Source: Galbitalea sp. SE-J8 (GTDB lineage Bacteria > Actinomycetota > Actinomycetes > Actinomycetales > Microbacteriaceae). Taken from it: a stretch of DNA of 64,000 bases. Location of the stretch: the NCBI RefSeq assembly GCF_030345695.1, contig NZ_JAUASV010000002.1, positions 62,001 through 126,000 of the forward strand, written 5' to 3'. Both the position numbers and the translations under genes were made by a program. Positions 8,970 to 62,020 of the stretch are shown here, piece after piece. The stretch's first letter is position 1, and each line of letters opens with the position of its first letter. The notes beneath the pieces are model-generated. The model ran no database searches, was not told where the DNA came from, and saw only the letters and a list, made by a program, of their open reading frames with translations.

Positions 8970-9680
8970 TCAGCCGAGCTCGTCGATGGCGTCGGTGATG
9001 ACCTTCGCGACCGCGGCCGGGTGGGTCTGCATGACGAGGTGCGGCGCGTCGATCTCTACCACCGAGCGCAGTCCGGCGCGCTGGTAGCCGAAGCGCTCGA
9101 CGTCGGGATTGATGGTGTGGTCCGCGCTCGAGACGATTCCCCAGGCCGGCCTGCTCTGCCACGCTGCAACGGATGCGGCCTCGCCGAACGCGATCGCGGA
9201 GAGCGGTCGCTGCGAGACCGCGAGAACCTCCGCGACGGCCGGCTCGACCCCAGCGGCGAATACGGCCGGGAAGGCGTCGATCTTCACCGACACGTCAGTG
9301 CCGTCGGTGCCGTCGGGGAGCGTGTAGGGCGTGTAGACGAGGTTCGCTGCGAGATCGGAGTCGGGGAAGCCGCCCTGCAGCTCACCGAGGCTCTCACCCT
9401 CCTTGAGCGCGTAACCCGAGACGTAGACGAGTCCGACGACGTTCTCGGCGACGCCGGCAACCGTGATCACCGCGCCCCCGTACGAGTGGCCGGCGAGCAG
9501 CACCGGACCGTCCACCTGCTCGACGTAGCGCCGGATGTACTCCGAGTCGCCCGACAGGGAACGGTTGAAGACGGGCGGGACGAGCACGGTGTAGCCCTGG
9601 TCCAGCAGGGTGCGGGTGACCGGACCCCAGCTGGCGGCATCCGCGAACGCGCCGTGGACGAGGACGATGGTGGGCTTCAT
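8970..9680 (-). CDS. alpha/beta hydrolase
   Basis: This 236-aa cytoplasmic hydrolase has the opening TIVLVHGAFADAASWGPV, nucleophile elbow LLAGHSYGGAVI (Ser) and C-terminal catalytic His in DAPHLVMQTHP. It belongs to the salicylate-esterase-like/EstC group. The ATG at 9680 follows AGGAG. It heads the minus-strand unit with DUF5996 and MFS_3 genes. The GlxA-type regulator at 9912 is divergent and is the likely controller. Substrate unknown. Confidence 0.88.
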   Translation of the reverse strand: MKPTIVLVHGAFADAASWGPVTRTLLDQGYTVLVPPVFNRSLSGDSEYIRRYVEQVDGPVLLAGHSYGGAVITVAGVAENVVGLVYVSGYALKEGESLGELQGGFPDSDLAANLVYTPYTLPDGTDGTDVSVKIDAFPAVFAAGVEPAVAEVLAVSQRPLSAIAFGEAASVAAWQSRPAWGIVSSADHTINPDVERFGYQRAGLRSVVEIDAPHLVMQTHPAAVAKVITDAIDELG

Positions 9681-9911
9681 GGTTGGCTCCTCGAGATCGC
9701 AGCCGCCGGTACCGGTGCGGACTGTGGGTGGATGCGGCCGGCTCCGGTCACACGCCCAGTCTTCTGTCGGCTCGCGCGCGACAGAACAGCGGACTCGGAC
9801 ATCCGCGTCGCACTTTCGGACCCCGCCGGGACGTCGACGCGGTCGTCGATGATCGTGGCGACGGAGGTGGCAGTGGTAGCGCGGCTCCAGTGCGTGCGCC
9901 ACCATGACTCT

Positions 9912-35183: not shown

Positions 35184-35423
35184 TCAGCGGGCGGGAACCC
35201 GGCGCGGCGGCGGGGGCGGCACCTCGCGCGCCGCGACGACCGTGTCGAATGCGATCGTGACGAGACCGCGCACGGTCGCGACCACGCACGCCGAGTCGGA
35301 CGCCCCGCTCAGGTAGCCCACGGCATCCGTCGCCGAGCCGTCCGGCAGCAGCCGGCGCACCGAGACGCGCGTGCCGTCGGGCGCCGCACGAAGCAGCGCG
35401 ACCGCATCCGCCGCGAGCGCCAC
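35184..35423 (-). CDS. small SH3-like protein related to the N-terminus of Rv0428c-type acetyltransferases
   Basis: This 79-aa protein has ADAVALLRAAPDGTRVSVRRLLPDGSATDAVGYLSG and VVATVRGLVTIAFDTVVAAREVPPPPPRR. This resembles the SH3-like domain that precedes the GNAT domain in actinobacterial Rv0428c-type proteins, here without any GNAT domain. The GTG start is 3 bp after the ferritin-like gene, so it is the last gene of the ether-lipid-like minus operon. Its role there is unknown. Confidence 0.6.
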   Translation of the reverse strand: MALAADAVALLRAAPDGTRVSVRRLLPDGSATDAVGYLSGASDSACVVATVRGLVTIAFDTVVAAREVPPPPPRRVPAR

Positions 35424-35426
35424 GGG

Positions 35427-36242
35427 TCAGGCCACGAGGGCCTCGTCGCCCATGTCGATGCCGTACTTGAGCATCGCGTTCTCGACGATCGTGAGGCCCG
35501 CGAGGCCGGGCATGCCGGAGATCTTCTCGTCGAGCTTGCGCACCTCGGTCAGTCCCGCGGCGCCCGAGAACAGGTGGCCGAAGACGTGCGTGATCTCCTC
35601 GCTCGTCGAGATCGTCGAGCCGACCGGGCCCCACGCCTTGGTGAGCGCGAACCGCGTGATGACCTGCGCCTTCTTGGAGCGCTCGAGCCGCATCCGCGCC
35701 TGCGTCGTGTAGAACGCGACGTGCCGGGTCTCCTGCTGCGCGATGCGCTTGAGCAGCACCGCGAGCACCGGATGCTGTTCCAGCTCCGCCATGCGCCGGT
35801 ACGCGGCGACCGCGCTCAGCTCGTTCGCGGCGCCCCAGGTCATGTGCGTGGCGATGAAGTCCTTGCCGACGAGGTTGCCGAGCAGGCTCTGCTTGACCGG
35901 GTCGAGGCGGTCCTTCCAGCCGAGCTTGAGGCGCGTGGCCTTGAGCTCGTCGAAGTCGACCGTGATGCCGTGCGCGCCGAGCACCGCGGCGAGGGCCTCG
36001 CCGTGCCAGAACTCCTCGCGGTTCCACATCGTCATGAACGCGCTGACGTCCTCGTCCTCGTGGGACGGCGTGACGAGCATGTCGCGCAGGTAGCAGACCG
36101 TGTGGTACTCGACGTCGCACATGTAGCGCAGCGCGCGCAGCGAGTCCTCCGGCAGCGGGGTGCGCTCGAACTCGGAGAAGTCGAGGTCGGTCCACGTCAC
36201 CGGGACCGAGGTCTCGGAGAACCTGTCGATGTCGAATGCCAT
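35427..36242 (-). CDS. ferritin-like diiron protein, acyl-ACP-desaturase-like
   Basis: This 271-aa all-helical protein carries a complete set of likely diiron ligands: Glu45 in DVEYHT, Glu77 and His80 in EEFWH, Glu141 in ANELSA, and Glu171 and His174 in ETRH. The spacing matches the soluble acyl-ACP desaturase/AurF class, which uses oxygen to desaturate or hydroxylate acyl chains. It lies 14 bp downstream of the fatty acyl reductase fusion, in an operon with a degenerate paralogue (38554). A role as a desaturase of an ether or acyl lipid is inferred. Confidence 0.8.
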   Translation of the reverse strand: MAFDIDRFSETSVPVTWTDLDFSEFERTPLPEDSLRALRYMCDVEYHTVCYLRDMLVTPSHEDEDVSAFMTMWNREEFWHGEALAAVLGAHGITVDFDELKATRLKLGWKDRLDPVKQSLLGNLVGKDFIATHMTWGAANELSAVAAYRRMAELEQHPVLAVLLKRIAQQETRHVAFYTTQARMRLERSKKAQVITRFALTKAWGPVGSTISTSEEITHVFGHLFSGAAGLTEVRKLDEKISGMPGLAGLTIVENAMLKYGIDMGDEALVA

Positions 36243-36256
36243 GCGCGTCCCGGACC

Positions 36257-38557
36257 TCAGCTCGCGGCGGAGGTGCCGGCTCCTTCCGTGTGCGTCGCGG
36301 GTGCGATCGAGGGCGGCGGGGTCGCGGCTGCGCCGCGCTTCCAGTCCAGCACCGTCCAGCGCTTCTCGCTCGCATAGCGGTAGAGCTGGGCGTCGGGATT
36401 GACCGCGTTCGGGTTGCCCGTGAGCTGCAGCCACGGGATGTCGGCGTGGCTGTCGCCGTAGCCGTACGAGCGCGCCAGGTCGAATCCGTTGCGCTCGGCG
36501 TAGCTGCGCAGCCACGCGGCGCGCGCCTCGTCGACGAGAGGCGGATCGGCGAGGTAGCCGGTGAGCACGCCGTCGCGGGAGTGCATCCGGCCGGCCACGA
36601 CCTCGTCGAAGAACGGCGCGAGCGGGGCCACCATGAGGTCGACGCTGCCCGTCACGAGGATCGTGCGGTGCCCGGCGTCGCGGTGCGCCTGCACCTGCGC
36701 GAGCGCGTCGGGCAGCGCCCGGCGCAGCATCGCGCGCTTGAAGCTGCCGCGAGCGAGGCGCTCGATCTCCGCGACCTTGAAGCCCCGGTAGCGGCGCATG
36801 AAGGTGCGGATGAAGTCACCCCGGTCCTTGCGCTCGGCCCGGTAGTAGCGGGGGAGGGAGAGCGCGAAGTCGCCGAGGTCGTGCGCCCAGCGGCTGCGCG
36901 GCACGCTGCCGGCCCACAGCAGCAGGTACTGCTCGACGAGGTTCGACTCGAGCACGGTGCCCTCGAGGTCGAAGACGGCCACGACATCCGACCGCACCGG
37001 CAGGGCCCGCGCGGCGCGGGCCTTGGCGGCGGGCCGCGCCGCGAAGGCCCGGGTGAGCGCCGTGATCGCCGGGAAGTGGATGCGCTGGAAGTAGTCCCGC
37101 CAGTCGATCTCGTTCACGTCGAAACCGAGCTCGGCGCGCTGCTCGGCCGGGATCGTCGCGGCGAGGCTCTTCGTCTCGACGTCGTCGAAGATGATCTCGG
37201 TCTGCACGTAGGCGCGGTACAGGTCGGTGAACTGGCGCAGGGTGCCGAGGTCGTGCTCGGCCTTCTTGACCCGGTCGAGCCAGCCGCGGGTGCGCGGCGT
37301 CATCGGCACGCGGCTGAGCGCGCGCGCCGCGGTCGCGACCGTCTTCTCGCGGCGCACGAGCGCCCGCTCGACCTTCGCGCCGCCCGGGAAGCGCCACAGC
37401 GGCACCTCGATGGGCTCGTCGTCCTTGGGGATCGGGTTCGCCGTGAAGTACTCGTTGACGTTCTCGTACATCGCGTGGAACGGGAGCGGGTTCGAGGCGC
37501 CCGAGCTCACGTGGTAGTAGTGCACGTCCGCCGGCTCCGGCCGGGTCGCGGCCGCAGCGAGGATCGCGTTGACGACGAAGTCGACCGGGATGACGTCGAG
37601 CACGCTGTCGGGGAGCCCCGGGAAGTCGGGCAGCAGGCCGCGGCCGTAGGCGATGATGAGCGGGTCCGCGACCTTGTAGCCGTCGATCCAGCCGGGGAAC
37701 GGATGGTGCAGCGCGCTCTCGATGATCGAGGGACGCACCACGGAGAGCCGGTGCCCGGCCTGGGCCCAGAGCTCCTCGGCCGCGCGCTCCGCGAACGCCT
37801 TCGTGAGCGTATAGACATCGGTCCAGCCGAGGCTCTCGGCGCGGGTGCGGCCGAAGTCGACGAGACGCTTCGACACCCACTCGGCGCGCGCGGCCTCCGC
37901 GGCCTGGGCGACGGCCTGCGGGCCGGCCTTGCCGTTGACGGTCTTCGCGTCGCGCAGGAACTCACGCAGCAGCTCGGGCTGGCGCGACTCGAGCTCGACG
38001 CGCTCGCGGGCGCTGAACGCGGCATCCGCTTCGGCGCGCCAGTCGACGGTGTGGCCGAGCGAGCGCTCGGGGTGGATGCCCTTGCGGATGCCGCCGACGT
38101 ACGCCGTCGACACGTGCACGACGTGCGGGTCGGCGCCCGACTCGAGCAGCGCGCCGTAGATGCCGCGCGCGCCGGAGACGTTCGTCGCGAACGCCTCGTC
38201 GATGGGCGGGTCGAACGACACGGTCGACGCGGAGTGGATGACGACGTCGAGGTCGGCGGGCAGGGCCGGCACGCTCGTGAGCGAGCCGTCGAGCACCGTG
38301 ACGCGCGCCTCGACGATGCGCTTGGCCTCGTCGACGCCGCCGACCGACTCGATCCACTTCGCGAACACCGGCTTGCGCAGCAGCTGCGTCAGCCGGCTCT
38401 CGCCGCCCGTCGAGCCCTTCTGCCGCACGAGCAGCGAGATGCGGGTGCCGGGATAGCTCGAGAGCAGCCGCTCGAGGATGGCCTGACCGACGAAGCCCGT
38501 CGCGCCGGTGAGGAAGACGTGCTCGTTCGTGAGCCCCGCGCGCTCCGGGGCGGTCAC
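36257..38557 (-). CDS. fatty acyl reductase-HAD phosphatase fusion
   Basis: This 766-aa protein has two enzymes in one chain. Residues 10 to about 490 are a fatty acyl-CoA/ACP reductase of the male-sterility/NAD-binding_4 family, with VFLTGATGFVGQ and the active-site YTLTK at about 248-252. Residues about 522-745 are a HAD-IB phosphatase-like domain with VFDLEGTVL, LVTGSVDLMVAPLAPFFDEV and YGYGDSHADIPWL. The second acid of the usual DxD motif is Glu here. The reductase would make a fatty aldehyde or alcohol. The GTG start overlaps the stop of the paralogous ferritin-like gene. I infer that it supplies fatty alcohol to the alkyl-DHAP synthase encoded divergently. Confidence 0.85.
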   Translation of the reverse strand: MTAPERAGLTNEHVFLTGATGFVGQAILERLLSSYPGTRISLLVRQKGSTGGESRLTQLLRKPVFAKWIESVGGVDEAKRIVEARVTVLDGSLTSVPALPADLDVVIHSASTVSFDPPIDEAFATNVSGARGIYGALLESGADPHVVHVSTAYVGGIRKGIHPERSLGHTVDWRAEADAAFSARERVELESRQPELLREFLRDAKTVNGKAGPQAVAQAAEAARAEWVSKRLVDFGRTRAESLGWTDVYTLTKAFAERAAEELWAQAGHRLSVVRPSIIESALHHPFPGWIDGYKVADPLIIAYGRGLLPDFPGLPDSVLDVIPVDFVVNAILAAAATRPEPADVHYYHVSSGASNPLPFHAMYENVNEYFTANPIPKDDEPIEVPLWRFPGGAKVERALVRREKTVATAARALSRVPMTPRTRGWLDRVKKAEHDLGTLRQFTDLYRAYVQTEIIFDDVETKSLAATIPAEQRAELGFDVNEIDWRDYFQRIHFPAITALTRAFAARPAAKARAARALPVRSDVVAVFDLEGTVLESNLVEQYLLLWAGSVPRSRWAHDLGDFALSLPRYYRAERKDRGDFIRTFMRRYRGFKVAEIERLARGSFKRAMLRRALPDALAQVQAHRDAGHRTILVTGSVDLMVAPLAPFFDEVVAGRMHSRDGVLTGYLADPPLVDEARAAWLRSYAERNGFDLARSYGYGDSHADIPWLQLTGNPNAVNPDAQLYRYASEKRWTVLDWKRGAAATPPPSIAPATHTEGAGTSAAS

Positions 38558-39390
38558 GCGGTCGCCTCGTATCGCGAGCGCACGAGGGTCAGTCCGTCGA
38601 GCCCGGGCAGCGCCTGGATGCGCGCGTCGACCTCGTCGAGCAGCTGCTGGGCGCCGTCGAAGAGCTGCGAGAAGAAATACGACACCTCGCTGCGCGGCTG
38701 GTAGTCGCTGCCGACCGGCAGTGCGGCGCGCGCCATCCGCTTGCGGGTCAGCGCGCGCGCCCCCGCCGACTCGCCGAGGCGGAACTCGGCCTGGGCGGCG
38801 AAGAACTGGAGGTGGCGGTCCTTGACCTCGCGGATGCGCTCGAGCACGCGGGTGAGCTCCGGATGCGGCTCCGTCGCCTCGACGCGCGAGTACGCCGTCT
38901 GCGACAGCCAGGTGTCGACCGCACCCGTCGTCATGTGCACGGCGATGACGTCGTCGCCGATCGCGTTCGCGACGAGCGCCTCGCGGATCGGGGAGAACCG
39001 GTCGATCACGGCGCGCACGCCGCCGCCGATGCGGTGCCGCAGCGACTGCGCGCCGACGACGACCGACGGATGCTTCGCGAGCACGGCGGACAGCGCATCC
39101 GCGATCCAGAACTTCTCGTACGCCCACGTGGTGAGGAACGCCGTGACGCGGGCGTCCTTGTGGCTCGGCGTGACGAGCACGTCGCGCAGGTGGTTCATCG
39201 TGGCGTGCTCGACGCTGCGCAGGAAGGCCAGCACGCGCACCGTCTCGCCGCTCAGCGGCTCGGCGTCGAACGCGTCGAGATCGATCTCGGCGCGATGGCT
39301 CCCGACCGCGGTGCGGGCGAACTCTCGCACGTCGAAATCCGGCGCGGGCGCGCTCAGGTCGGGCACGGGCGGGGAGAGCTCTTGCGTCAT
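38554..39390 (-). CDS. degenerate ferritin-like paralogue without diiron ligands
   Basis: This 278-aa protein aligns along its whole length with the ferritin-like protein at 35427 (for example LRDVLVTPSHKDARVTAFLTTW against LRDMLVTPSHEDEDVSAFMTMW). Most metal ligands are replaced: Glu77/His80 become Lys93/Ile96, Glu141 becomes Thr160 and Glu171 becomes Lys190. Only Glu61 and His193 remain. It is the first gene of the minus operon and overlaps the reductase start by GTGA. A structural or regulatory subunit of the active paralogue is the simplest reading. Confidence 0.75.
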   Translation of the reverse strand: MTQELSPPVPDLSAPAPDFDVREFARTAVGSHRAEIDLDAFDAEPLSGETVRVLAFLRSVEHATMNHLRDVLVTPSHKDARVTAFLTTWAYEKFWIADALSAVLAKHPSVVVGAQSLRHRIGGGVRAVIDRFSPIREALVANAIGDDVIAVHMTTGAVDTWLSQTAYSRVEATEPHPELTRVLERIREVKDRHLQFFAAQAEFRLGESAGARALTRKRMARAALPVGSDYQPRSEVSYFFSQLFDGAQQLLDEVDARIQALPGLDGLTLVRSRYEATA

Positions 39391-39477
39391 GAGCCGCTTT
39401 CGTCGATGGGTGCCCGAGCGAGGCCGGGCGGTGCGGTAGCCCGAGTCTACCCGGCGGGCGCTACGCGGCCCGTAGCG

Positions 39478-39483
39478 TAGGCT
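39478..39483 (+). promoter_or_regulatory. -10 box, leaderless start of the SDR-PlsC-AGPS operon
   Basis: TAGGCT ends 7 nt before the ATG at 39491, without a ribosome binding site. The 100 bp between 39390 and 39491 must hold both divergent promoters of the locus. Confidence 0.5.
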
Positions 39484-39490
39484 GGCATCC

Positions 39491-40285
39491 ATGGCCACGG
39501 CTCTCGTCACCGGCGGGACCTCCGGCATCGGTGCCGAGTTCGCCCGGTCGCTGGCCGCCCGCGGATACGACCTCGTCCTCGTCGCGCGCGACCAGGAACG
39601 GCTGGCCGGGATGGCATCCGAGCTGTCGGCGGTTCACGTCGAACTGCTCCCCGCCGACCTCGCGGACCGCGCGGATGTCGCCCGCGTCGTCGCCCGGCTC
39701 GAGGACGCCGCGCGCCCCGTCGACGTGCTCGTCAACAACGCCGGCTTCGGCATCCACACCTCGCTCGTCGACCCCGACCTGGAGCGCATCGACCTCGGCT
39801 GGGAGGTCATGCAGCGCGCCGTGCTCGTGCTGAGCGCCGCCGCGGCCCGCGGGATGCGGGAGCGCGGTCACGGGCGGATCATCCAGGTCTCGTCGACCGC
39901 CGGCTTCATCACCCTCGGCGCGTACTCGGCCGCGAAGGCATGGCTCACGTCGATCAGCGAGGCGCTCTCGAACGAGCTCGTCGGCACCGGGGTCACGGTG
40001 ACGGCGCTGTGCCCGGGATGGGTGCACACCGAGTTCCACGCGCGCGCCGGCATCCGCAAGTCGTCGATCCCCGACTTCCTCTGGCTGCAGCCGGGGCCGC
40101 TCGTCGAGAAGTCGCTCCGCGACGCCGAGAAGGGGCGGGTCATCTCGATCCCCTCCGTGCGCTACGGCGTGCTGATCTGGTTCGCGCGGCACCTGCCGAA
40201 GGGCGTCATCCGTCGCATCTCGCGCTCGATCTCATCCGCGCGGTCGGCGGCGGCCGCCGCCCCCGCCACGGGCGGTCGCGCTTGA
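39491..40285 (+). CDS. short-chain dehydrogenase/reductase
   Basis: This 264-aa classical SDR has the cofactor motif TGGTSGIGAEFA, the NNAGFG motif, the catalytic Ser in VSSTAG, and Tyr/Lys in YSAAKAW. The C-terminal 40 residues after PSVRYGVLIWFARHLPKGVIRR are basic and may touch the membrane. It leads an operon with a PlsC-type acyltransferase and an alkyl-DHAP synthase homologue. Reduction of acyl- or alkyl-DHAP to the glycerol-3-phosphate derivative is the obvious candidate reaction; this is inference. Confidence 0.85.
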   Translation: MATALVTGGTSGIGAEFARSLAARGYDLVLVARDQERLAGMASELSAVHVELLPADLADRADVARVVARLEDAARPVDVLVNNAGFGIHTSLVDPDLERIDLGWEVMQRAVLVLSAAAARGMRERGHGRIIQVSSTAGFITLGAYSAAKAWLTSISEALSNELVGTGVTVTALCPGWVHTEFHARAGIRKSSIPDFLWLQPGPLVEKSLRDAEKGRVISIPSVRYGVLIWFARHLPKGVIRRISRSISSARSAAAAAPATGGRA

Positions 40286-40304
40286 CGCGGATCGGGGCGC
40301 GCTG

Positions 40305-41000
40305 ATGGCGCGCCGGGATCAGTTCGACTCGCGCGCGCTCGCGTCGGTGCGATTCGTCGCGCAGCGCGGCCTGCTCAAGAGCGTCGTCTGGTCGTGGACG
40401 GACGTCGACATCGTCGGGCGCTCGCGCGTGCGCGGGCTGTCCGGCGCGTTCATCGTCGTGGCCAACCACTCGAGCCACCTCGACGCGCCGCTCATCATGG
40501 GCGCCCTGCCGCGACCGCTCGCGCGCTACCTGGCCTCGGGGGCCGCGGCGGACTACTTCTTCGACGTGAAGTGGCGCACCTGGCTCACGGCCCTGTTCTT
40601 CAACGCGTTCCCCGTCGACCGCGGCCTCGGCCAGCGCTCGCGGCCCGGAATGTCGAAGGGGCTGCTCGAGCGCGGCGTGCCGCTGCTCATCTTCCCGGAG
40701 GGCAGCCGCTCGCGCACGGGCGAGATGGGCGCGTTCAAGCCCGGCGCCGCCGCGCTCGCGATCGCGTGCGAGGTGCCGGTCGTGCCGATCGCCCTCACCG
40801 GTGCGAACGTCGCGATGCCGCGCGGCCGGAGCTGGCCGGTGGCCGGCCGCAAGCCCGTGCGCGTCGAGATCGGCGCCCCGCTGCGGGCGAAGCCGGGCGA
40901 GTCGCCCGAGGAGTTCTCCACTCGGCTGCACGCCGAGATCAGCCGCATGCGCGCCGATGGTGGCGCGTCCGCATCCGTAATCGGAAAGGGCCGACGATGA
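40305..41000 (+). CDS. PlsC-type lysophospholipid/DHAP acyltransferase
   Basis: This 231-aa acyltransferase has the catalytic NHSSHLD (HX4D), the substrate motif FPEGSRSRTGEMGAFKPGA and VPVVPIALTGA. It transfers an acyl chain to a glycerophosphate or DHAP backbone at the membrane. It starts 19 bp after the SDR gene and overlaps the alkyl-DHAP synthase gene by 4 bp (ATGA). In the ether-lipid reading it either makes acyl-DHAP, the substrate of the synthase, or acylates position 2 afterwards. Confidence 0.87.
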   Translation: MARRDQFDSRALASVRFVAQRGLLKSVVWSWTDVDIVGRSRVRGLSGAFIVVANHSSHLDAPLIMGALPRPLARYLASGAAADYFFDVKWRTWLTALFFNAFPVDRGLGQRSRPGMSKGLLERGVPLLIFPEGSRSRTGEMGAFKPGAAALAIACEVPVVPIALTGANVAMPRGRSWPVAGRKPVRVEIGAPLRAKPGESPEEFSTRLHAEISRMRADGGASASVIGKGRR

Positions 41001-42673
41001 CCGACGGCGATCACACGAACGTCAAGCACATGAAGTGGTGGGGGTGGGGCGTCGAGGGCGTCGGCTTCCACCACGAGGACAAGCCCGGCTTCGCGCCCTT
41101 CGTCAAGAACGCCGTCGGGCTCGACCTGTGGGAGGCCGAGCGCTCCGGGCAGGTGCCGTTCGAGAGCATCAGCGTGCCGAAGTCGAAGGCGACCGCGGCG
41201 AAGGTCGCGGCGCTCGCCGCCATCGTGGGCGCCGAGCACGCCTCGACGGATGACGAGCTGCGCGTCGTGCACACCTACGGCAAGTCGATCCGCGACCTCA
41301 TCCGCATCCGTACCTCGCGCATCGCGCGCGCCGTCGACGTCGTGGCCTACCCGGGTGACGAGGCCGAGGTGCAGCAGGTCGTGGACTGGGCCGTCGCGAA
41401 CGACGTCGTCGTGATCCCGTTCGGCGGCGGATCGAACATCGCGGGCAGCCTCGAGCCGATCGCGGGGGAGAAGCGCGTCGTGCTCTCCCTCGACCTCGGC
41501 CGGCTGTCGAAGGTCGTCGAGATCGACGAGGGCTCGGGCCTCGCGGTCATCCAGGCCGGCGCGCAGGGCCCCGACATCGAGGAGCAGCTGAACGCCCGGG
41601 GCTGGACGATGGGCCACTTCCCCGACTCGTTCACCCACTCCACGGTCGGCGGCTGGGTCGCGACCCGGTCGTCGGGCATGCAGTCGGACGTCTACGGCGA
41701 CATCGCCGACATCGCGCGCGGAATGCGCCTCGTGCGCCCGGGCGGCGTCGCCGTCATCCGCGCGCTGCCGTCGACCTCCACCGGACCGAGCGTGCGCGAG
41801 ATGATCCTCGGCTCGGAGGGGCGCCTCGGCGTCATCACCGAGGTGACGGTCAACGTGCACCGGCTGCCCGAGGTGCGCGAGATCATCGGCTACCTGTTCC
41901 CGTCCTGGGAGGCCGGGATCGCCGCGATGCACGAGATCGCGGAGTCGGATGCGCAGCCCACCGTGACGCGCGTCTCCGACGCCCGCGAGGCGGGCTTCTC
42001 GTTCGCGACCTCGAAGGCCGTCACGGGCATCGACGCGCAGAAGATCCTGCAGAAGTACCTCGCGGCGCGCGGCTGGGACCTGACGAACATCAACCTGTCG
42101 TTCATCGGCTACGAGGGCAGCGCGTCGCACGTGGCGTACGAGAAGAAGCTCGTCGGCCGCATCGTGCGCAAGCACGGCGGCATGAGCGTGGGCAAGGGCC
42201 CGGGCGTGCTGTACGACCAGAAGAAGTTCGACACCCCGTATCTGCGCGACTTCCTGCTCGACTACGGCGCAGCGGGCGACGTGTCGGAGACGGCGGCCCC
42301 CTGGTCGCGGCTCAACGAGATCCACGACGCCGTGTACGCGGCGGCGGACGCGGCCTACGAGTCGATCGGCATCACGGGCTGGATCATGTCGCACCTGTCG
42401 CACTCGTACCACTCGGGCGCGTGCCTGTACTTCACGTTCGCGTTCGTCGCGAAGAACGACATGCTCGCCGACTACGACGTGGTCAAGAAGGCGATCCAGC
42501 AGGCGTTCATCGACCACGGCGGCACGCTCTCGCACCATCACGGCGTCGGTGTCGAGCACTCCCCGTGGATGGGGCAGGACATCTCCGAGGGCGGCGTCGC
42601 GATCATGCGCGGCCTGTTCGAGGCGAACGACCCCGGCAACAACCTCAACCCGGGCAAGATCCTCCCGGCCTGA
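40997..42673 (+). CDS. alkyldihydroxyacetonephosphate synthase (AGPS) homologue
   Basis: This 558-aa FAD enzyme has the VAO-type FAD domain with PFGGGSNIAGSLEP and a cap domain. The AGPS-specific C-terminus shows SGACLYFTFAF (the conserved Tyr near residue 478 matches the essential Tyr of mammalian AGPS), the His-rich loop LSHHHGVG at about 511-518, and DPGNNLNPGKIL. The N-terminal MKWWGWG is also typical. AGPS exchanges the acyl chain of acyl-DHAP for a fatty alcohol, creating the ether bond. It is translationally coupled to the acyltransferase. Other FAD-linked oxidases are less likely because of the HHHG and ACLYF motifs. Confidence 0.87.
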   Translation: MTDGDHTNVKHMKWWGWGVEGVGFHHEDKPGFAPFVKNAVGLDLWEAERSGQVPFESISVPKSKATAAKVAALAAIVGAEHASTDDELRVVHTYGKSIRDLIRIRTSRIARAVDVVAYPGDEAEVQQVVDWAVANDVVVIPFGGGSNIAGSLEPIAGEKRVVLSLDLGRLSKVVEIDEGSGLAVIQAGAQGPDIEEQLNARGWTMGHFPDSFTHSTVGGWVATRSSGMQSDVYGDIADIARGMRLVRPGGVAVIRALPSTSTGPSVREMILGSEGRLGVITEVTVNVHRLPEVREIIGYLFPSWEAGIAAMHEIAESDAQPTVTRVSDAREAGFSFATSKAVTGIDAQKILQKYLAARGWDLTNINLSFIGYEGSASHVAYEKKLVGRIVRKHGGMSVGKGPGVLYDQKKFDTPYLRDFLLDYGAAGDVSETAAPWSRLNEIHDAVYAAADAAYESIGITGWIMSHLSHSYHSGACLYFTFAFVAKNDMLADYDVVKKAIQQAFIDHGGTLSHHHGVGVEHSPWMGQDISEGGVAIMRGLFEANDPGNNLNPGKILPA

Positions 42674-42680
42674 CGGCGGC

Positions 42681-43316
42681 TCACCCCTGCGCGGCCCCAG
42701 GTGGCGGGGGAAGCCGCCCGCTGGGCGGGGAGGAGCCGCTGGGCGGGGAGGGCGGCGCCAGCGACGGCCAGAGCGCGTCGAGCACCTCGTCGGCCCACGC
42801 GGCATCCGTCGTGCGCCCGCGGATCGACTCGGCGACGAAGGTGCCGAGCAGGATGCTGATGACGAGCTCGACGTCGAGGTCGCGGCGCAGCTCGCCCGCA
42901 TTGCAGCGCGCCGCGAGGTCGACGCGCAGCGGCCGCGAGCGCGTGCGCACCATGTCGAGCAGGAGCGCCGTGAAGCGGTGGTCCTCGTCGACGAGGATCG
43001 CCGCGACCGCGCCCCGGCCGACGATGTACTCGATCGTGTCGCGGGCCTCGCCGAGGTACCAGTGCAGGACGTCGCGCGCCGTGCGCCCCAGCGGGACCTC
43101 GACGACGCGCGTCGCCGCGCTGACCACGTGCGCGAGCAGCGCGTCGCGGTTGTCGAAGCGGCGGTAGATCGTCGTCTTCGCGATGCCCGACTCGGCGGCG
43201 ACGGCCTCGATCGTCACGGCGAGCGGCCCCCGCCCGCGCAACAGCTCGAGCGCGGCGGCCTCGATACGCGCGTCGACGTCGGCCGAGCGTCCGCTCGCCG
43301 CGCCCGCGGTCGTCAT
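42681..43316 (-). CDS. TetR/AcrR family transcriptional regulator
   Basis: This 211-aa protein has the N-terminal DNA-binding domain LAVTIEAVAAESGIAKTTIYRRFDNRDALLAHVV and a helical ligand domain similar to the TetR_C_16/AcrR type. It ends in a Pro-rich tail (PSPPSGSSPPSGRLPPPP). It is convergent with the AGPS gene and divergent, by only 40 bp, from the EamA transporter. It may control the transporter; control of the ether-lipid locus is possible but not indicated. Confidence 0.85.
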   Translation of the reverse strand: MTTAGAASGRSADVDARIEAAALELLRGRGPLAVTIEAVAAESGIAKTTIYRRFDNRDALLAHVVSAATRVVEVPLGRTARDVLHWYLGEARDTIEYIVGRGAVAAILVDEDHRFTALLLDMVRTRSRPLRVDLAARCNAGELRRDLDVELVISILLGTFVAESIRGRTTDAAWADEVLDALWPSLAPPSPPSGSSPPSGRLPPPPGAAQG

Positions 43317-43343
43317 GCGCCCACCCTACGGGAACGCTCGGCC

Positions 43344-43349
43344 TAGGAT
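43344..43349 (+). promoter_or_regulatory. -10 box, leaderless start of EamA gene
   Basis: TAGGAT ends 7 nt before the ATG at 43357. A second in-frame ATG at 43348 overlaps the box itself, so 43357 is the better start. Confidence 0.5.
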
Positions 43350-43356
43350 GACCGGG

Positions 43357-44358
43357 ATGCCCGTGCTGCTCGCCCTCCTCGGCGCCGTGGCATACGGCAT
43401 CTCCGACTTCCTCGCGGCGCTCGGCGCCCGCCGCCTCGGCGTCGTCGCGGCCACGGTGCTCGGCTACGGGGCCGGGCTCGTCGCGATCGTCGCGCTCTGG
43501 CCGCTCGCGCCCGGCGCATGGTCGGCCGGGGCGGCGCTCGCGGGTGCCGCGGCCGGGGTGCTCGCGGCGGTCGGATTCCTCGGGTTCTACGCCGCGCTCG
43601 CGATCGGCCCGATGAGCGTGCTGTCGCCGCTCATGGCCGTGGTCGGCTCGCTCGTGCCCGTCGCGATCGCCCTCGTCGGCGGAGAACGGATGTCGCCCCT
43701 TGCGGTCGCCGCCGTCGTCGCCGCGATCACGGCGGGCGCCCTCGTGTCCGCGAACCGGGAGCCCGCGAACCGGGTGACAGCGCGAGCACTGCTGCTCGCG
43801 CTCGTGGGCGGCGTGGGGCTCGGCTCCTCGATCGCGGCCATCGACTCGGCACCCGAGGGCTCGGGCCTCATCCCGGGGGTGCTCGAGCTCGCGGTCGGGC
43901 TCGTCGTGCTCGGGATCATCGCGGCCTCACGCTGGTCGAGGAGCGCGCGACGCAGTCGCTCGCGTCTCGAGACCACCAGGGGTCGTGCTCGCTGGTCGAG
44001 GAGCGCGCGACGCAGTCGCTCGCGTCTCGAGACCACCAGGGGTCGGATCGAGCCGGCGGTGGTCTCGGGACGCGGCGTCGCTGCGCCCGGGCGCTCCTCG
44101 ACCGACCCGGCGAAGCCGGGTCGCGCGGGCTACGCGCAGGCTCTCGGCGGGGGCTCGCTGCTCGGTCTCGCGAACGGCCTGCTCGTGCTCGCGCTCGTCG
44201 CGGGCGGCGGTCTCGCGGTCGTCGCCGTGCTCATCAACCTCTACCCGGTCGTGACGGTGATCCTCGCGACCGTCATCACGCGCGAGCGGATCGCACCCGT
44301 GCAGATCGCGGGCGTGGCGCTCGCGTTGGCGGCATCCGTCGTGCTCACCTTCGCGTGA
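43357..44358 (+). CDS. EamA/DMT family transporter with REP-derived insert
   Basis: This 333-aa protein has ten predicted hydrophobic segments in two halves, as in EamA/RhaT transporters (LLALLGAVAYGISDFLAALGARR at the start, LINLYPVVTVILATVITRERIAPVQIAGVALALAA at the end). Between the halves, residues of about 192-250 are an Arg/Ser-rich hydrophilic insert (RWSRSARRSRSRLETTRGR, twice). This insert is the translation of REP-like repeats at 43930-44106. The insert keeps the frame, so the gene is probably still functional. Substrate unknown; it is divergent from a TetR gene. Confidence 0.82.
   Translation: MPVLLALLGAVAYGISDFLAALGARRLGVVAATVLGYGAGLVAIVALWPLAPGAWSAGAALAGAAAGVLAAVGFLGFYAALAIGPMSVLSPLMAVVGSLVPVAIALVGGERMSPLAVAAVVAAITAGALVSANREPANRVTARALLLALVGGVGLGSSIAAIDSAPEGSGLIPGVLELAVGLVVLGIIAASRWSRSARRSRSRLETTRGRARWSRSARRSRSRLETTRGRIEPAVVSGRGVAAPGRSSTDPAKPGRAGYAQALGGGSLLGLANGLLVLALVAGGGLAVVAVLINLYPVVTVILATVITRERIAPVQIAGVALALAASVVLTFA
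43930..44106. repeat. tandem plus inverted REP-like elements inside the EamA gene
   Basis: A 60-bp unit beginning CGCTGGTCGAGGAGCGCGCG and ending near GAGACCACCAGGGGTCG is repeated without mismatch with a 60-bp period (43930-43989 and 43990-44045). A third, diverged copy lies in inverse orientation at 44058-44106 (GGTGGTCTCGGGACG ... CTCCTCGACCGAC). Two direct copies facing one inverted copy recall REP/REPIN elements. Confidence 0.9.
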
Positions 44359-61328: not shown

Positions 61329-62020
61329 TGGGGTGGCTGGGGGAGAACCTCGGACTCGTCGTCGATCTGACGCTCCAGCACGCGCGGCTGAGCGTCATCC
61401 CGATCGTGGTCTCCCTCGTGGCCGCCCTCCCGCTCGGCTGGGTCATCAGCCGCAGCCGCCTCGGCATCGTGCTGCTCGGGGTCGGCAACGTGATCTACAC
61501 CATCCCGTCGCTCGCGCTGTTCGTGAGCCTTCCGGCGATCCTCGGCACGCGCATCCTCGACGAGACGAACGTCGTCGTCGCGCTGTCGCTCTACGGCGTG
61601 ACGCTCATGATGCGCGGCGTCGCGGATGCCTTCGGCTCCGTCTCGGACGACGTGCGCCAGTCGGCGCGCGCGATCGGGTACTCGGCGGCCGGGCGCTTCG
61701 CCTCGGTCGAGCTGCCGCTCGCGGCCCCGGTGATCATCGCGAACCTCCGGGTCGTCTCGGTCTCCACGATCAGCCTGCTCAGCGTCGCCGCGATCATCGG
61801 CCAGGGCGGCCTCGGCTACCTGTTCACCGACGGCTACAGCCGTGACTTCCCGGCCGAGGTGCTCATCGGCATCGTCGCGACGCTGGTCATCGCGGTCGTG
61901 TTCGACCTCGTGATCGTCGCCGCCGGCCGCATCCTGCTGCCCTGGCAGCGGCCCGCTCGCCGCGGGCGGGCGCGCGCGTCGCTCGCGCTCAGCCCGGACG
62001 CGGCCGGTGGTGCGTCGTGA
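61328..62020 (+). CDS. opuCB: glycine betaine/choline-type ABC permease
   Basis: This 230-aa inner-membrane permease has SVIPIVVSLVAALPLGWVISRSRLG, GNVIYTIPSLALFVSLPAILG and the EAA loop QSARAIGYSAAGRFASVELPLAAPVIIANLR. It has about six membrane segments and a basic C-terminal tail. It overlaps the ATPase gene by one base and the next permease gene by 4 bp (GTGA), so all are coupled. Confidence 0.88.
   Translation: MGWLGENLGLVVDLTLQHARLSVIPIVVSLVAALPLGWVISRSRLGIVLLGVGNVIYTIPSLALFVSLPAILGTRILDETNVVVALSLYGVTLMMRGVADAFGSVSDDVRQSARAIGYSAAGRFASVELPLAAPVIIANLRVVSVSTISLLSVAAIIGQGGLGYLFTDGYSRDFPAEVLIGIVATLVIAVVFDLVIVAAGRILLPWQRPARRGRARASLALSPDAAGGAS

Follow-up and report, generated by a model that had tools for sequence, protein, structure and literature searches.

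A predicted mobile six-gene cassette for aerobic ether lipids, most likely plasmalogens, with a candidate soluble vinyl-ether desaturase in actinobacteria

Locus Organization

Galbitalea sp. SE-J8, a member of the Microbacteriaceae, harbors in its 3.33-Mb genome a compact divergent locus that, judged from its protein sequences, is very probably a cassette for ether-lipid biosynthesis. The window analyzed here is the 64,000-nucleotide stretch at positions 62,001 to 126,000 of contig NZ_JAUASV010000002.1 (forward strand), and coordinates refer to the window unless preceded by a locus number (L). The cassette is defined as the six genes DIA, FAR-HAD, DIB, SDR, PlsC, and AGPS (35427-42673), in which DIA and DIB are working names for a soluble diiron protein and its ligand-less paralogue. 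The assignments, with their main basis in parentheses, are as follows.

35427-36242, minus strand: DIA, ferritin-like diiron protein, candidate Delta1' (vinyl-ether) desaturase (metal ligands, fold, co-occurrence with AGPS)
36257-38557, minus strand: FAR-HAD, predicted alcohol-forming fatty acyl-coenzyme A (CoA) reductase with a haloacid dehalogenase (HAD-IB) domain (Pfam, PDB 7eoz)
38554-39390, minus strand: DIB, DIA paralogue without diiron ligands (alignment, predicted fold)
39391-39490, no strand: divergent intergenic region of 100 bp, presumed shared promoter region
39491-40285, plus strand: SDR, short-chain dehydrogenase/reductase, candidate (acyl/alkyl)-dihydroxyacetone phosphate (DHAP) reductase (adh_short 3.7e-43, intact motifs, conserved place in the cassette)
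40305-41000, plus strand: PlsC-type acyltransferase, candidate DHAP or sn-2 acyltransferase (Acyltransferase 3e-21, HSSHLD, FPEG)
40997-42673, plus strand: AGPS, predicted alkyl-dihydroxyacetone-phosphate synthase (FAD_binding_4, FAD-oxidase_C, catalytic residues, tree)

Open reading frame (ORF) analysis of the window places two tight, divergent gene sets on either side of the 100-bp gap. On the minus strand, DIA and FAR-HAD are separated by 14 bp and FAR-HAD and DIB by -4 bp; on the plus strand, the spacings are 19 bp between SDR and PlsC and -4 bp between PlsC and AGPS, which overlap. Coordinates and spacings alike reproduce the two tight operons, divergent over 100 bp, of the initial annotation of this DNA. 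No match to the sigma-70 consensus is present in the divergent region (39391-39490).

Conservation and Mobility of the Cassette

The DIA loci named here are 80 of 254 matches, and 60 of the 80 hold all six genes, in several gene orders. Genera with a full cassette include Subtercola, Labedella, Herbiconiux, Salinibacterium, Rhodoglobus, Lacisediminihabitans, Agreia, Glaciihabitans, Galbitalea, Amnibacterium, Arenivirga, Pseudolysinimonas, and Homoserinibacter, among others. In tblastn maps, the divergent order DIA-FAR-DIB and SDR-PlsC-AGPS is constant across many Microbacteriaceae genera. Ruania carries a single co-directional operon, DIA-DIB-FAR-SDR-PlsC-AGPS, and in Phytoactinopolyspora alkaliphila, the cassette is in part rearranged. 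In seven Jiangella genomes, DIA stands alone at one site and AGPS at another, the latter taking the form of a FAR-SDR-PlsC-AGPS operon both in six loci with complete flanks and in one whose fetched flank is shorter.

A 2.35-Mb plasmid of Streptomyces sp. NBC_01450 carries precisely these six genes (L255:8751-16739), flanked on either side by transposase genes, and is the sole DIA record in 72,556 plasmids. The initial annotation had suggested that the six proteins be searched as a set across actinobacterial genomes; they occur together in dozens of them, spread over different genera, families, and orders, a linkage far beyond chance. The gene linkage and the Streptomyces plasmid are direct evidence that the cassette is both passed on and transferred as one set.

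Alkyl-DHAP Synthase

The best PDB matches of the cassette AGPS are the Dictyostelium AGPS (3e-117) and the guinea pig AGPS (6.5e-81), followed by the next oxidoreductase at 7.6e-21. The homology spans both flavin adenine dinucleotide (FAD) domains, and within the vanillyl-alcohol oxidase family AGPS is the nearest relative. The guinea pig enzyme employs the catalytic tyrosine Y578, a loop of three histidines (H615-617), and the two active-site arginines R419 and R515. The corresponding residues in the window protein are Y478, H513-H515, R325, and R417.

Maximum-likelihood analysis groups the AGPSs of the cassettes in a single clade (100/100), which is joined to the Dictyostelium and guinea pig AGPSs (99/99), and not to the glycolate/lactate oxidases with which the initial annotation had considered a possible grouping. 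Two FAD oxidases encoded in the same genome fall outside the AGPS clade, as do the more distant AGPS-like proteins from other actinobacteria. The eukaryotic AGPS branches are long, and the branching order within the group of cassette and eukaryotic AGPSs is not reliable. The nearest NCBIfam model is GlcD, far under its cut-off, and an assignment as a GlcD-type or lactate oxidase was rejected on the basis of the PDB E-values and the tree placement. By homology, the cassette FAD protein is a true alkyl-DHAP synthase, predicted to exchange an acyl for an alkyl group on DHAP.

A second AGPS-like group, with approximately 36% identity and a retained histidine loop, is present in other Microbacteriaceae and Actinomycetota (L091, L092, L093, L094, and L249). 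The four Microbacteriaceae among these lack a FAR of the cassette type.

FAR-HAD, SDR, and PlsC

FAR-HAD matches the Pfam families NAD_binding_4 (9.7e-45) and HAD (1.5e-32) and, weakly, Sterile. Residues 12-498, comprising the NAD-binding and Sterile-type parts, match the fatty acyl-CoA reductase of PDB 7eoz (7.1e-45). On the basis of these domain and PDB matches, FAR is a predicted alcohol-forming fatty acyl-CoA reductase. Motif I of the fused HAD domain is DxE (DLEGT, at approximately residue 530) rather than the usual DxD in all 25 of 25 cassette FARs; phosphatase activity of this domain is therefore doubtful.

The SDR harbors intact TGGTSGIG, NNAG, and S/YxxxK motifs, and the PlsC protein keeps its catalytic motifs HSSHLD and FPEG. 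Both belong to the right families for an alkyl-DHAP reductase and a DHAP acyltransferase; gene context suggests that they would act as analogues of PexRAP and of GNPAT or AGPAT, respectively. The Pfam matches agree with the initial annotation as to the FAR-HAD fusion, the SDR, and the PlsC-type acyltransferase.

In some loci, two additional genes are located between FAR and DIA, encoding a LarA-like protein (Lar_N, PF09861) and a second PlsC-type acyltransferase. They occur in Subtercola (L149:7669-9102 and 9102-9836), Labedella, and a Jiangellales-like metagenome-assembled genome (L146-L154, L192) and are missing from the window and from most genera.

The Diiron Protein DIA and Its Paralogue DIB

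The diiron ligands of DIA (E45, E77xxH80, E141, and E171xxH174) are invariant among 28 homologues. DIA and DIB are paralogous, with 38% identity (E 2e-60). In DIB, E77 (K/A), H80 (I/M/L/V/F), and E171 (K, Q, R, D, or I) are replaced in 23 of 23 sequences, and since at least three of the six ligands are lost, DIB should not hold a diiron site. These alignments bear out the pairing of a complete with a degenerate ferritin-like diiron protein proposed in the initial annotation.

Family assignment of DIA by Pfam is borderline, with FA_desaturase_2 at 22.2 bits (gathering cut-off 22.7) and Rubrerythrin, and DIB has no family match in Pfam or NCBIfam. The predicted structure of DIA (pLDDT, predicted local distance difference test, 85.7) is closest to the solved folds of soluble acyl-acyl carrier protein (acyl-ACP) desaturases. 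It aligns with PDB 4v0j at Z 18.9 over 238 residues (3.1 Å), followed by R2lox (Z 15.8) and then R2, and has a Foldseek match to 7t63 with E 3.6e-4. The DIB model (pLDDT 90.5) adopts the same acyl-ACP-desaturase-like fold (Z 17.4). The models place DIA among the O2-activating, desaturase-type diiron proteins and not with the membrane-bound CarF/PEDS1, although a fold alone is no proof of function. DIB is a probable structural or regulatory partner of DIA.

Co-occurrence of DIA and AGPS

Among 200 Microbacteriaceae genomes, AGPS of the cassette type is present in 54 and DIA in 60. Both are present in 53 genomes, AGPS only in 1, DIA only in 7, and neither in 139 (Fisher p 1.9e-39, with kinship between genomes ignored). 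In the 10 genera in which AGPS is variable, DIA tracks AGPS in 8 (g9, g17, g33, g37, g52, g68, g76, and g82), for which a sign test gives 0.055. The exceptions are g22, in which the AGPS-carrying genome is 85% complete, and g79. The association extends to unlinked genes: in g17 and Naasia, DIB-DIA is unlinked to the other cassette genes and yet co-occurs with AGPS, and DIA and AGPS co-occur in 7 of 7 Jiangella.

Dimethylacetals in Cassette Carriers

The whole cassette is present in Subtercola vilae DB165 (L149), in Subtercola lobariae CGMCC 1.12976 (L152), the type-strain deposit of that species, and in Subtercola boreus as a species. Dimethylacetals (DMAs), which are the products of vinyl ethers upon acid methanolysis, sum to 22.1% of fatty acids in S. 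vilae DB165, 26.5% in S. frigoramans, 28.6% in S. boreus, and 20.7% in S. lobariae (PMC5945732). In S. vilae DB165, they consist of i-16:0 DMA (17.0%), a-15:0 DMA (3.2%), and a-17:0 DMA (1.9%), while no DMA is reported for Frondihabitans (PMC5945732). Beyond Subtercola, anteiso-15:0 aldehyde/DMA has been reported for Frigoribacterium D8 and F. faeni, with two congeners reported to be without (PMC12823222). The statement in the initial annotation that some Microbacteriaceae contain DMAs is confirmed for Subtercola (PMC5945732), and the comparison of DMA reports with gene presence that it proposed comes out in agreement for S. vilae DB165, S. lobariae, and S. boreus, which carry the whole cassette. 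Judged from Subtercola, the cassette product likely includes plasmalogens.

Standard MIDI runs of the same four Subtercola species list no DMA but 15.6, 9.9, 10.4, and 3.9% of "2-OH C14:0" (PMC9287328). These values track iso-16:0 DMA (17.0, 13.3, 11.9, and 6.9) with r 0.98, for n = 4 and from different cultures. As a lead only, routine fatty-acid profiling may misname DMAs and hide plasmalogens in Microbacteriaceae. In the open-access literature, no text was found that links plasmalogens with genes of Subtercola, Agreia, Jiangella, or Herbiconiux, and no paper connects the cassette genes with DMAs.

Proposed Pathway and Alternatives

It is fairly probable that the locus constitutes a self-contained and mobile unit for making ether lipids aerobically, most likely plasmalogens, with DIA as the vinyl-ether desaturase. 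The individual reactions and their order are inferred here, as are what DIA acts on and what DIB and the HAD domain do. FAR would reduce a branched acyl-CoA to the fatty alcohol. Acylation of DHAP would fall to the PlsC protein or else to an acyltransferase with a house-keeping role. AGPS would then swap the acyl group for the fatty alcohol to yield alkyl-DHAP, which the SDR would reduce to alkyl-glycerol 3-phosphate for normal phospholipid assembly. Following assembly of the alkyl phospholipid, DIA would introduce the 1'-2' double bond with O2 and two electrons, probably in a complex with DIB, which may position the substrate or provide membrane contact. The products would most likely be plasmalogens with iso- and anteiso-branched chains.

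As a Delta1' desaturase, DIA is the best single hypothesis, with somewhat better than even chances. It is preferred as the vinyl-ether maker because it is the sole cassette member with desaturase-type features, because it follows AGPS even when unlinked, and because no known vinyl-ether enzyme was found. The PlsA marker PF09989 is absent from all 48 cassette genomes, six Subtercola included, while positive controls matched in 4 of 14. The genomes of S. vilae DB165 and S. lobariae CGMCC 1.12976 contain neither this marker nor a match to PF10520, a family for which the control genomes gave no match. The initial annotation had proposed a full oxygen-dependent ether-lipid pathway; its ether-lipid part is upheld by AGPS, the conserved unit, and the DMA-positive Subtercola, while the final desaturation retains candidate status. 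Likewise, its diiron desaturase unrelated to CarF gains from the fold and the co-occurrence, and the activity itself stays a proposal.

Several observations weigh against these assignments. Agreia, a cassette carrier, is reported with at most 4% DMA (PMC5945732), and DMA reports are missing for most cassette species, although this silence is weak evidence because MIDI profiling may misname DMAs. Six genomes (G025, G056, G078, G101, G161, and G141) keep DIB-DIA without a close AGPS and, where FAR was searched, without FAR; among the named genomes, the same holds for Agromyces, Leifsonia flava, L. sp. Leaf264, and Glaciibacter flavus. In other Actinomycetota, the more remote DIA relatives (36-47%) lie unlinked to cassette genes; 12 of the 19 genomes with such relatives have no AGPS-like match, and 7 have some AGPS-like gene. 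No match to PF10520, the CarF/PEDS1 family, occurs in any of the 48 cassette genomes, but the control genomes gave no match either. Membrane desaturases of PF00487 are present in 183 of 200 genomes, including most cassette genomes, and could supply the desaturase. The strongest argument is that DIB-DIA retained without FAR and AGPS must do something useful outside this ether pathway, so that the substrate of DIA need not be a home-made alkyl ether. The genomes with DIB-DIA only form a single clade of the DIA tree (support 93), nested within full-cassette lineages; thus, most simply, the four ether genes would have been lost once with DIB-DIA retained. The neighborhoods of these DIB-DIA pairs are varied (epoxide hydrolase, the ispG/nusA region, and others) and give no indication of a substrate, and no shared lipid partner was found near the distant DIA relatives, whose contexts are mixed, with genes standing alone.

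The main alternative, which is unlikely though not negligible, holds that ether lipids are made but that DIA-DIB desaturates or hydroxylates a chain elsewhere than at C1' (acyl-ACP or fatty alcohol), with the vinyl ether formed by another enzyme such as a PF00487 protein. The acyl-ACP desaturase-like fold of DIA, the persistence of DIB-DIA in genomes without FAR or AGPS, the near-universal membrane desaturases of Microbacteriaceae, and the 2-OH C14:0 reported for Subtercola and Frigoribacterium all favor it. However, PF00487 is too widespread to be informative, its presence does not track that of the cassette, and in two carriers, G040 and G129, no PF00487 desaturase is present at all. AGPS is almost never found without DIA (53 of 54), DIA moves together with the four ether genes on the Streptomyces plasmid, and the reported 2-OH C14:0 may be a misnamed DMA. 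FARs can release aldehydes, and it is conceivable, at a considerably lower probability, that only saturated alkyl ethers are made, that DIA-DIB serves in redox or oxygen protection or in aldehyde handling, and that the Subtercola DMAs stem from free or bound fatty aldehydes or from another pathway. Against this, DMAs at 20.7-28.6% in four species are above expectation for free aldehyde pools, and the ligands and fold of DIA are of the oxygen-dependent desaturase type. Finally, the AGPS-like protein could be another FAD oxidase in a locus for a wax or a specialized lipid, with which FAR, an acyltransferase, and the sub-threshold GlcD assignment are compatible; this is very improbable, since the AGPS tree and catalytic residues oppose it and the PDB E-values favor AGPS by nearly 100 orders of magnitude.

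In evolutionary terms, the chances lean slightly toward aerobic actinobacterial plasmalogens arising via a second, independently evolved O2-dependent Delta1' desaturase, namely DIA with its dead paralogue DIB, on a horizontally moving, complete-pathway cassette.

Neighboring Genes

Two genes flank the cassette in the window.

35184-35423, minus strand: SH3-like protein of 79 residues (Pfam SH3_Rv0428c, 9.3e-8), outside the cassette
42681-43316, downstream of AGPS and opposite to it: TetR gene, outside the cassette

The SH3-like gene lies 3 bp from DIA on the minus strand, and the initial annotation had listed it with the two operons. In tblastn maps of the fetched loci, both flanking genes come and go among Microbacteriaceae; they were rejected as cassette members, since most loci, and likewise the Streptomyces plasmid, lack them. 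The SH3_Rv0428c domain is usually fused to an acetyltransferase and stands alone in the window protein. In Salinibacterium and its kin, relatives of the SH3-like protein are encoded no more than a few kb from the cassette, but on the AGPS side.

Further downstream, an exact 60-bp tandem duplication is located at 43930-44045, within an ORF (43183-44358) for an EamA-type transporter-like protein. The 60-bp unit has 117 genome-wide matches, many clustered or present as inverted pairs, resembling a dispersed repeat of the REP/REPIN type (repetitive extragenic palindromic).

Comparison with Known Systems

Plasmalogens are usually considered absent from aerobic bacteria, myxobacteria being the exception (PMC9131029). 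DMAs have nevertheless long appeared in the descriptions of Subtercola species and of some few other Microbacteriaceae without an enzyme that would account for them, and the cassette supplies the genes. Its range covers approximately a quarter of the sampled Microbacteriaceae, as well as Ruania, Jiangellaceae, and one Streptomyces plasmid. Should DIA prove to be the desaturase, the vinyl-ether bond would have a third evolutionary origin in addition to those of PlsA and CarF/PEDS1, and the soluble DIA should purify more easily than the membrane desaturase of animals. Introduced into a laboratory actinobacterium, one cassette could provide ether lipids for testing plasmalogen function.

At the level of fold, DIA shares its predicted structure and ligand order with the soluble acyl-ACP desaturases (FA_desaturase_2; e.g., castor Delta9 and Mycobacterium tuberculosis DesA2) and with R2lox. 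It differs in its low identity (13-20%), a Pfam score just under the cut-off, a shorter length, a ligand-less paralogue, and its ether-lipid context.

The anaerobic PlsA/PlsR route of Clostridium and others, some Actinobacteria included, likewise yields bacterial vinyl-ether lipids (PMC9702350). In contrast to the cassette, it reduces a diacyl lipid directly, without DHAP, alcohol, or O2 (PMC9702350).

The animal peroxisomal pathway (FAR1, GNPAT, AGPS, PexRAP, and PEDS1/TMEM189) follows the same logic of DHAP and fatty alcohol as that predicted for the cassette. Both share a Sterile-type FAR, an AGPS in which every catalytic residue is kept, a reductase of the SDR family, and an acyltransferase of the PlsC type. 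Unlike in animals, the cassette genes form one 7-kb bacterial unit with HAD fused to FAR, and DIA and DIB are present instead of a PEDS1 relative, none of which was detected in cassette genomes (PF10520, for which the control was unmatched).

Myxococcus xanthus employs the elb operon, the MXAN_1676-1674 operon, and CarF, and shares with the cassette AGPS, FAR1-like, HAD-family (ElbB), SDR/epimerase-type, and acyltransferase functions (PMC9131029). It is also aerobic, with iso-branched chains and vinyl ethers. However, its final desaturation is carried out by CarF, a membrane protein whose gene lies elsewhere, and its main route proceeds through the multidomain ElbD, whereas the cassette harbors a standard AGPS with DIA-DIB (PMC9131029). 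The cassette thus appears to resemble the aerobic pathway of animals and myxobacteria, with the known desaturase replaced at the last step.

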